A stretch of 64,000 bases of DNA, taken from Sulfurospirillum multivorans DSM 12446 (GTDB taxonomy: Bacteria > Campylobacterota > Campylobacteria > Campylobacterales > Sulfurospirillaceae). This document shows positions 39,521 through 41,274 of the stretch, piece by piece. The position numbers and the translations under genes were made by a program. Each line of letters starts with the position of its first letter. Within the stretch, counting starts at the first letter, position 1. The notes beneath the pieces are model-generated. The model made no database searches. It saw only the letters and a program-made list of their open reading frames with translations, and was not told the origin of the DNA. The stretch spans positions 1,426,001 through 1,490,000 of the forward strand of contig NZ_CP007201.1 in assembly GCF_000568815.1 (NCBI RefSeq), in the 5' to 3' direction.

Positions 39521-39703
39521 TGCGTATGCCTTTACATGTAAAAATAAACAAGGTTTGATTATAGCAAAATTTCGTATGAAGAAGTTGCAATACATTCTGA
39601 CAATGTTTAATGGATTGCCAAGCGAAGTACAGAAATCATTAGTTTTTTAAATCAGAATACTCCCAATCAAGCTCTCTAAACTATGCATATCCTAAATCAT
39701 AGT

Positions 39704-39796
39704 TTAGAAATATTCTGAAAAATCAGTGCGTTTGAACTTTTCAATCACCTTTTTTAAATGATCCATACGCATTGTGACATCGGGTATGTACTTTTC
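39704..39796 (-). pseudogene. Short C-terminal gene remnant
   Basis: On the minus strand a 30-codon stretch ending DHLKKVIEKFKRTDFSEYF and a stop reads like a real protein tail, but an in-frame stop at 39797-39799 precedes it. I cannot assign a family. An 11-base inverted repeat (39675-39685 with 39698-39708) overlaps its stop. The rest of the 39596-39950 gap shows no other coding signal. Confidence 0.25.
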
Positions 39797-39960
39797 TTAT
39801 TGAGAGCAGGATAGGAAAAGAAAGTTAGGAGTGTCGCGGAATAAAAGCCTACTTGTAAGAGAATAAGCTATACCGAGAGGATGGTTACAAAGAGAGAAGG
39901 AAGAAGCAGTGATTTAATAAGCATTAACTTCTCATTGAGGTATGGTTTAAGCTAAGAGTC

Positions 39961-39966
39961 TATACT
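39961..39966 (+). promoter_or_regulatory. Possible -10 element of a small RNA
   Basis: TATACT preceded by a T-rich segment, placed about 95 bases before the end of the strong terminator at 40023-40058. There is no recognisable -35 box, which is normal in Campylobacterota. Confidence 0.35.
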
Positions 39967-39972
39967 TTCACT

Positions 39973-40058
39973 TGTAACACACATACCTCCTTTCTGTAAA
40001 TAACCTACCAATTTTTAAGATGAACGCTCGAATTGCCCGGTTCGAGCGTTTCTTTTTC
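39973..40058 (+). ncRNA. Candidate small RNA with anti-Shine-Dalgarno segment
   Basis: No open frame explains this stretch, yet it ends in an excellent intrinsic terminator. A transcript from the TATACT at 39961 would be about 85 nt. It contains ACCTCCTTTCT at 39985-39995, complementary to ribosome-binding sites and identical over ten bases to the usual 3' tail of 16S rRNA. C/U-rich anti-SD segments are typical of regulatory RNAs in Helicobacter and Campylobacter. The 5' end is a guess. Confidence 0.4.
40023..40058 (+). terminator. Strong intrinsic terminator
   Basis: AACGCTCGAA (40023-40032) pairs perfectly with TTCGAGCGTT (40041-40050) around an 8-base loop and is followed by TCTTTTTCTT. 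No protein gene on this strand ends nearby. Confidence 0.85.
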
Positions 40059-40155
40059 TTAAAAACATCCCAAATCCTTCTTTTTTCATCATAAATTTCC
40101 CTTCACGTGTATTAATCTTTGCTATAATCGAATGAATTAATCATAAAGAAGTATC

Positions 40156-41274
40156 GTGAAACTGATTCATTTTTCGGACACGCATTTAGGCTTTAACGAT
40201 TTAGACATTATCAATGAGCTTGGTATCAACCAGCGCGAGGCTGATTTTTACGATGCTTTTATGCAAGTCATTGAGCAAATCAAAGCGATAAAACCAGACT
40301 ACATCATCCACACAGGTGATCTTTTCCACCGTCCATCTCCCAGTAACCGAGCTATCACCTTTGCCCTTGAGCAATTTAAAATCATCGAAGCACTGAATAT
40401 CCCTTTTATCATGATAGCGGGCAATCACAGCACGCCACGCACCAATCTAAGCTCACCAATACTCAAAATATTTGAAAACTTTAAAAACGTTTATGTCTCA
40501 TACAATCAAGAGTACAAAAAGATAGAGTTCGATGATGTTATCTTTCATACCTTACCTCACATGCACGATGAGAGCAAGGCGCTTTCTCAAATCGAGCTGT
40601 GTGAAGCAAACATCGATACAACCAAACGCAACATCATGATGCTTCACTGCTCTGTCGGTGCGCACTATCTCATGGCTGAGTTTGGCGAGTGGGTCTATCC
40701 ACACGATAAAGAGAGCCTTTTTTCTAAAGTGGATTATGTCGCTCTTGGGCATTGGCATGGCTTTGGAAAAGTCGGTAAACACGAAAACGTTTACTACGCA
40801 GGCTCAACCGAGCGAACCAGTTTAAATGACAAACGAAACTCCAAAGGATATATCGAAGTCACACTGGATGAGTCTTTACATGTAAACTACCACGAGATAC
40901 AAATTCGCCCCATTAAAACCTATGAGATTGATTGCGAGGACTACGAGCACTCAGTTGAGTCTTTACATGTAAACGATACAAAAGACGCTCTTGTCGAAGT
41001 CAAACTGACCCATCTTACCCCGTTGCAGTCCATCGACATACAAACCCGTGATATCAAAAATCTCTTTGGCGAAGCTTTACATGTAAGCATCAAACGAGAG
41101 TTCAAACAAACCAACGGTGAAGCCACACTAAACGACATCGAAGCACTCTCTTTGGAAGCGTACTTTTTAGAACACATCAAAGAAGAAAGCCAGCCTGAAG
41201 AGTTTGAACGACTCAAAGGCAAAATCCAAGGCTTGTTTAGTGCCTACGAAGAGGTGAGCGATGATACTCTCTAA
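40156..41274 (+). CDS. sbcD: SbcD/Mre11-type exonuclease subunit
   Basis: Manganese-dependent nuclease subunit of the SbcCD (Mre11-Rad50) complex, which opens hairpins and processes DNA ends. The start is GTG 40156. The phosphodiesterase motifs are HFSDTHLG, HTGDLFHR, AGNHSTP and, further on, ALGHWHGFG. Length is 372 residues. It overlaps sbcC by 14 bases. Three exact palindrome copies (40876, 40963, 41077) encode LHVN, LHVN and LHVS in the less conserved C-terminal half. Confidence 0.94.
   Translation: MKLIHFSDTHLGFNDLDIINELGINQREADFYDAFMQVIEQIKAIKPDYIIHTGDLFHRPSPSNRAITFALEQFKIIEALNIPFIMIAGNHSTPRTNLSSPILKIFENFKNVYVSYNQEYKKIEFDDVIFHTLPHMHDESKALSQIELCEANIDTTKRNIMMLHCSVGAHYLMAEFGEWVYPHDKESLFSKVDYVALGHWHGFGKVGKHENVYYAGSTERTSLNDKRNSKGYIEVTLDESLHVNYHEIQIRPIKTYEIDCEDYEHSVESLHVNDTKDALVEVKLTHLTPLQSIDIQTRDIKNLFGEALHVSIKREFKQTNGEATLNDIEALSLEAYFLEHIKEESQPEEFERLKGKIQGLFSAYEEVSDDTL

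Follow-up and report, generated by a model that had tools for sequence, protein, structure and literature searches.

The window, that is, the whole stretch of 64,000 nucleotides of Sulfurospirillum multivorans analysed here, contains between 39596 and 40155 a gap of 560 bases without genes, flanked by an ORF of 81 aa on the minus strand and by sbcD on the plus strand. A sequence-only reading had pointed to this gap and to a candidate small RNA within it at 39973-40058. The gap was confirmed at its full length, and these coordinates coincide with a conserved RNA matched by our covariance model R1. The features are the following.

39913..39951, plus strand: half-site array of four direct repeats with 11-bp spacing (TTTA at 39913, TTAAC at 39924, TTGAG at 39935, TTTAAG at 39946), from alignment A3 (55 copies); an OmpR-family response regulator presumably binds here
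39961..39966, plus strand: -10 box TATACT, 10 nt past the last half-site, without a -35 hexamer
39973..40058, plus strand: small RNA of about 86 nt, matched by R1 with 93.7 bits, the window copy being one of the 58 rows used to build R1
39985..39995, plus strand: ACCTCCTTTCT, identical to the 16S 3' tail and single-stranded in prediction
40022..40059, plus strand: intrinsic terminator, hairpin at 40022-40051 followed by a T-rich tail; the stem covaries
40033-40040, plus strand: terminator loop TTGCCCGG with the conserved UGCCC
40156..41274, plus strand: sbcD-like gene (Pfam Metallophos), downstream neighbour outside the RNA

The predicted RNA start lies 6-7 nt 3' of the -10 box, and the TATACT noticed in the sequence-only reading is preceded by the half-site array. 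The terminator, which had been judged one of the best of the window, ranks second of 36 terminator-like sites when hairpin energy is considered beside the T-rich tail. Simple scans did not rise above chance, neither for terminators (one found, against a shuffle mean of 1.4) nor for promoters (six promoter-like sites, against 6.6 in shuffles), and the promoter of the RNA is absent from these six because it lacks a -35 hexamer. The RNA gene is raised above chance by its folding score (z = -3.58, none of 200 shuffles being as good) together with its BLASTN conservation in the genus. No family of Rfam 15 matched the window at gathering score; the sequence-only reading had noted no tRNA, tmRNA, 6S or RNase P signature. 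Elsewhere in the gap, the decayed remnant of the C-terminal end of a HipA-like gene (39667-39799, minus strand; intact form at L034:3038-4363, HipA_C) accounts for part of the stretch without genes.

Copies of the RNA and conservation of its parts

Conservation in close relatives had been set beforehand as a test of the candidate. With the gap as BLASTN query, all of the 23 other genus members searched gave a match, and 22 of the 23 matched over the RNA segment; in G018 (77% complete) the match begins only at the terminator. The matches of the 3' flank extend as far as sbcD, and among the places listed the 5' flank is matched only in G004, G006, G014, G016 and G023. The genome of S. multivorans harbors six copies of the RNA, that of the window and five others found by pattern and covariance model.

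C1 2637030, minus strand: RNA copy
C1 2248393, minus strand: RNA copy
C1 407555, minus strand: RNA copy
C1 2548696, minus strand: RNA copy
C1 2738161, plus strand: RNA copy

The covariance model, built from 58 distinct copies, gives 1-9 matches in each of 41 out of 44 genomes of the family, with all five genera represented; it found none in G018, G060 and G065. Among the named contigs with a match to the RNA core are those of Sulfurospirillum diekertiae JPD-1, S. cavolei UCH003 and S. arcachonense. Among 36 pattern loci that lie outside named Sulfurospirillum-like contigs or are unclear, L218 has the RNA (71 bits) and three more reach E-values of 0.01-0.04; the 3-kb contig of L218, labelled as a Bacteroidia MAG, is probably a misbinned Sulfurospirillum contig. 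No relative was found on the viral contigs scanned with SbcD.

The copies adjoin unrelated genes and the next ORF is convergent in 10 of 63, which speaks for an independent RNA rather than a leader. The segment could indeed be read as a leader or attenuator of sbcD, located 104 nt downstream, without any free RNA: of the 63 copies having a downstream ORF, 11 are followed by a co-oriented ORF derived from sbcDC (seven full sbcD and four remnants), at 103-105 nt in 10 of these 11. However, the remaining 52 have another neighbour, a strong terminator sits ahead of sbcD, and sbcD possesses its own conserved upstream segment (positions 515-560 of the gap query match several genomes on their own), so that we consider such a leader very improbable and keep to a free RNA. 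The largest copy class in Sulfurospirillum (17 copies) stands before a gene for a family-5 solute-binding protein, mostly followed by an OmpA-family gene.

Some minor observations concern the surroundings of the copies. The ORFs of 87-149 aa downstream of the RNA copy in L025, L055, L075 and L077 look like sbcDC remnants after internal deletion, the sbcD start being joined to the sbcC end in L077 and L025, and the sbcC end being retained in L055 and L075. Local duplication is suggested by L133 (G026:C1:2050068-2051481), L138 and L148, where two or three RNA copies are found within 1.4-2.3 kb of one another. The palindrome TTACATGTAA is highly iterated, with 35 sites in the window against 0.14 expected (e.g. 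40876, 40963, 41077, 41954, 42338), several of them within sbcD and sbcC; it also occurs at the predicted transcription start of the RNA copy in L038, L068, L069, L071 and L039.

The copies were aligned (alignment A1) from 67 rows, namely 65 model matches plus L095 and L097, from which L065 and L081 (no TGCCC) as well as L046 and L077 (no readable -10 box) were left out; the merging of identical rows gave 58. The window RNA contains ACCUCCUUUCU, an exposed segment complementary to the Shine-Dalgarno (SD) sequence and identical to the 16S tail. As had been proposed, the two 16S genes of the same genome have the 11-mer ACCTCCTTTCT as their 3' tail. The exact 11-mer is present in 4 of the 58 aligned copies and CCTCC in 57 of them, with a predicted probability of being unpaired of 0.96 on average and 0.78 at minimum. 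TGCCC occurs in 58/58 aligned copies, L065 and L081, which both lack it, standing outside the alignment.

The consensus of the 58 copies folds into one hairpin, the terminator, whose stem shows two-sided changes in 9 of its 12 pairs. Its cells are paired in 98.4% of cases, against 85.3% in shuffled alignments and at most 45.8% when the stem is slid; the number of further pair types, one of five covariation measures, was matched by 48 of 500 shuffles. A hairpin with CCUCC in its loop, which forms in some relatives (L084, L326, L336), is absent from this consensus and was dismissed.

The conserved CCTCC might also be the mere reverse complement of the SD sequence of a small gene on the minus strand, where AGAAAGGAGGTATG precedes a frame of 10 codons in the window copy and where a start codon (ATG, GTG or TTG) stands within 12 nt in 58/58 copies. 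This is barely conceivable, as ATG is found in only 12 of the 58, as the promoter, the orientation of the terminator and the covariation all agree with the plus strand, and as a minus-strand gene would leave the multicopy conservation of the RNA unexplained. Altogether the sequence-only proposal of a small RNA is supported: the element is conserved, present in several copies, and provided with its own putative promoter, a covarying terminator and a CCTCC predicted to be exposed.

The promoter array and the Spy-linked two-component system

The half-sites upstream of the copies were compared in alignment A3, which comprises 55 of 85 listed segments, L142 having been omitted beforehand. In the genome of S. 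multivorans, the pattern formed by the array and its spacing to the -10 box (up to three mismatches) gave eight matches, six of which are the RNA copies, against none for the reversed control. A looser pattern of four repeats gave five matches against four in the control; three were RNA copies, one corresponded to nothing, and one was located upstream of a gene for an LTXXQ protein (Spy/CpxP-type periplasmic protein), as assigned by Pfam on the protein of the same genome.

The LTXXQ gene was matched in 37 of the 44 genomes of the family. Thirty LTXXQ loci were fetched, and GTTAA-type repeats with an 11-bp period followed by a -10-like box were found upstream in 27 of the 29 readable ones, L206 at a contig edge being uncounted and the array being absent upstream of the gene in L207 and L208. 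Twenty-two of these arrays were placed by score (12 to 16) and five by eye, where shuffles gave a mean of 11.1, a 95% value of 13 and a maximum of 15. Some single scores thus lie within the range of the shuffles (12 in L204; 13 in L183, L184 and L197), and it is the position of the array and its recurrence from locus to locus that carry the case of the LTXXQ promoters. The LTXXQ loci L198 and L203 have TATACTTTCATTATCAAA in common, near to TATACTTTCATTACCAAG of the RNA genes.

The LTXXQ gene is usually followed by genes for an OmpR-type regulator and a kinase, the regulator gene being present in the same ±1.5 kb locus in 24 of the 30. In S. multivorans, the regulator lies about 5 kb downstream of the LTXXQ gene and is followed by an ArsS-family kinase (452 bits, against a cut-off of 250) and a recR-like gene; it reaches 121 bits against the CpxR cut-off of 341 and is also below the cut-offs of the other 24 families listed. 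We take the genes flanking the LTXXQ-regulator-kinase operon to be dnaJ and recR, and this order presumably resembles the dnaJ-racR-racS-recR order of C. jejuni. The array and its spacing to the -10 box are alike in the RNA copies and in the presumed operon promoter of the Spy-linked regulator. From the gene neighbourhood and this shared array, we infer that the Spy-linked OmpR-type regulator is the putative driver of the RNA promoters. Comparison between loci, at the level of sequence, reveals an RNA gene in multiple copies with a structured terminator and a promoter architecture shared with this operon, and the RNA gene with its shared promoter may be regarded as well supported.

Model R2, which covers the promoter and the 5' part of the RNA copies, was trained with RNA copies only (including the loci L143 and L149 of the second family, f11, presented below). 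Although not aimed at protein-coding genes, it also picked up LTXXQ promoters (L339, L340, L362, L365), in G017 and G009 within the family and in L339 and L340 outside of it. Outside the family, it further matched the promoters of a gene for an HtrA-type protease (L359) and of a YfdX gene (L348), in one genome each. In the Cpx envelope-stress regulon of E. coli, an OmpR-type regulator controls Spy/CpxP and DegP/HtrA; the regulator found here differs in being far below the CpxR cut-off and the kinase in belonging to the ArsS family. Other R2 matches precede secreted-looking proteins without Pfam match (L341, L342), and two show the promoter with no ORF in the range tried (L355, L366). In L366 (G009:C7:135032), a similar promoter has behind it a stretch of about 60 nt and a terminator hairpin, with no CCTCC, and might drive another RNA of this regulon.

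The promoter could instead belong to the regulon of HP1043/HsrA or of PhosR. The accessible parts of two reports describe HP1043 sites as TTTAAG-N5-TTTAAG in place of the -35 box (PMC5253667, PMC8345958); the 11-bp period is alike and the window copy has one TTTAAG. Across the copies, however, TTTAA is followed by A in 23, by G in 17, by T in 12 and by C in 2 of 54, so that the G, which is important in HP1043/HsrA sites, is not kept and the promoter does not qualify as such a site. Moreover, the 12-kb pst region is devoid of a site of the kind found here (best score -14.5), while 52 of the 54 copies score 29.6-63.5 and the remaining two 7.4 and -3.2, and the array with its 10-nt spacing is found again before the LTXXQ genes. 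Control by HP1043 or PhosR is accordingly improbable compared with the Spy-linked system. Three other candidates were rejected: a Pho box, the array being missing from the pst region of the same genome; the PCE regulator PceP, whose site, given as CTATW-N17-CTATW in the accessible part of its report (PMC7755780), differs from the array; and a local two-component system adjoining some copies (clusters c24/c25), abandoned after the LTXXQ-regulator-kinase operon was found.

Spread beyond the family

Over the phylum, R1, which covers the whole RNA, matched 27 of 397 genomes, including five weak matches outside the family of S. multivorans (E-values from 1e-5 to 0.009). Those in G371 and G229 withstood closer reading; L144, L150 and L151 look like chance. 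R2 matched 118 of the 397 genomes, 22 in the same family, 75 in family f11, which looks like Campylobacter, and 21 in others. Thirty-four matches from 28 genomes of f11 were read by eye, and CCTCCTTTTTGTA follows the promoter in 30 of them. The exceptions are L143 (ACTCC), L338 (ACCC), L339 (an LTXXQ promoter) and L363 (nothing recognisable). These RNAs mostly end in a hairpin whose stem sequence is unrelated, often with a C-run in its loop. Six second-family RNAs were folded, and CCUCC came out half paired (0.47) in a single one, that of L325. This RNA, from genus g29, lies between an rpsI-like gene (recognised by eye) and an OmpA-family gene, a position that we take to be the rpsI-cadF gap of Campylobacter. 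Nine second-family loci were compared with Rfam, and the sole match above gathering score was a tRNA.

In L345 (family f6), an RNA-like site has ACCTCCTTTTT between the arms GCAGATA and TATCTGC, after a similar promoter and before a second hairpin, both hairpins being unlike the others; eight other matches read outside f1 and f11 (families f6, f9, f14, f16, f17 and f19) were promoter-like only. The multicopy state, the spread over two families and the promoter shared with an envelope-stress operon are all beyond what the sequence-only reading could see.

Possible action on ribosome-binding sites

We favour, with a probability of about two in three, the view that these RNAs are trans-acting siblings within an envelope-stress two-component regulon and act by blocking ribosome-binding sites. 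An OmpR-family regulator, most likely from the Spy-like/ArsS-family-kinase locus, would bind the four GTTTA/GTTAA half-sites spaced by 11 bp and, upon envelope stress, recruit RNA polymerase to the -10-only promoter. Each of the six loci would then yield an RNA of about 86 nt, whose exposed 5' half bears ACCUCCUUUCU or ACCUCCUUUUUGUG and may pair with the SD sequences of mRNAs, outcompeting the 16S tail. The mRNAs favoured in this competition would be those with a long SD sequence. Such pairing would lower the translation of a set of mRNAs, at the time when the same regulator would raise periplasmic chaperones and proteases, and the UGCCC of the terminator loop is a possible second pairing site.

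That the RNA acts on ribosome-binding sites, as the sequence-only reading had suggested, is plausible, and the target prediction that it called for gave weak or negative results. Among 101 ORF starts of the same genome, 33 reached a duplex energy of -12 kcal/mol or lower, against 25 with the reversed RNA and 21 inside genes, a weak excess; a pattern of extended SD sequences gave three sites in this genome against four for the reversed control. The neighbouring OmpA-family genes were rejected as targets because their pairing is weak within the family (-5.8 to -9.4 kcal/mol in 10/10 starts); one OmpA-family start of the second family reached -14.4 kcal/mol.

The same sRNA family might act mainly in another way, through the UGCCC loop on G-rich mRNA leaders, in the manner of RepG, or by binding a protein. 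TGCCC is invariant in the 58 aligned copies (from which the two copies without it were left out), C-rich loops recur in several second-family RNAs, and the SD-target tests are weak. Yet CCTCC is equally conserved, is not part of the hairpin and is retained in RNAs with an altered terminator loop, and we regard this alternative as rather unlikely next to the blocking of SD sequences. A wider version of the latter would be an old Campylobacterales sRNA with a copy of the 16S tail as its active part, present in 1-9 copies per genome under an envelope-stress two-component system, that acts as a broad brake on SD-dependent initiation. This is a tentative extension, doubtful at present. If true, the effect should be strongest on mRNAs with long AAGGAGG-type sites, and envelope stress would entail a general slowing of translation instead of the repression of a few outer-membrane genes.

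The accessible parts of the published literature (including PMC3656092, PMC3847290, PMC5447181, PMC11187230, PMC11955535 and PMC7048300) do not describe this RNA family, and a Campylobacter candidate may stand in supplementary tables (e.g. Table S11 of Dugar 2013). Anti-SD sRNAs are already known; we rate as new a sibling family of anti-SD sRNAs that occurs in two families of Campylobacterales and is tied to a putative envelope-stress regulon. Very few small RNAs with wide conservation are known from this order: according to the available portions of two studies, most sRNA candidates of Campylobacter jejuni are species-restricted and only 6S is common to Helicobacter (PMC3656092, PMC3847290). 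Campylobacter is described as devoid of Hfq in the part of the former that was available (PMC3656092). The conserved promoter and core, and their presumed link to one regulon in two families, offer a system in which post-transcriptional control of envelope stress, perhaps Hfq-free, is open to study. The family is also a natural test of whether a nearly pure anti-SD RNA can be selective.

The closest functional model is LhrC1-5 of Listeria monocytogenes, for which the accessible text reports five near-identical copies, induced by envelope stress via LisRK, and CU-rich motifs that block an SD sequence (PMC4132741). The multicopy state is similar, with six copies in S. multivorans, and the control by an envelope-stress two-component system would be parallel, as suggested here by the shared promoter array only. 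Membership in the LhrC family fails on architecture: LhrC has 111-114 nt and three UCCC motifs, located in two loops and in the segment that separates these, whereas the Sulfurospirillum RNA has about 86 nt, one anti-SD CCUCC, one GCCC segment and one hairpin.

RepG of Helicobacter pylori is likewise a sRNA of Campylobacterota with a C-rich terminator loop, but in the portion of its report at hand this loop pairs with a G-repeat, and a search through about 120 genomes, Sulfurospirillum included, revealed no repG homologue beyond its own group (PMC8295292). Compared with the C/U-rich loop of RepG, the loop UUGCCCGG of our RNA is C-rich without a C/U run. In C. jejuni, CJnc230 also has a single-stranded stretch with a possible anti-SD sequence; this is CCUU, and the sRNA is RpoN-dependent and overlaps Cj1728c, as far as the accessible text goes (PMC11187230). 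Among the anti-SD sRNAs of Alphaproteobacteria, BbsR14 of Bartonella is reported, in the part available, to carry anti-SD motifs as in the 16S rRNA (PMC7717549), but these stand in two stem-loops and in another phylum. The Rfam family that comes nearest is SorX of Rhodobacter (RF02784), whose model did not match the window copy. The RNA of L330 (L330:2630-2702) remains at 30.1 bits, below the gathering score of 46.6, and does not form the 5' stem of this model, but it can be aligned with the model from end to end, ACCUCC and the terminator falling in register.
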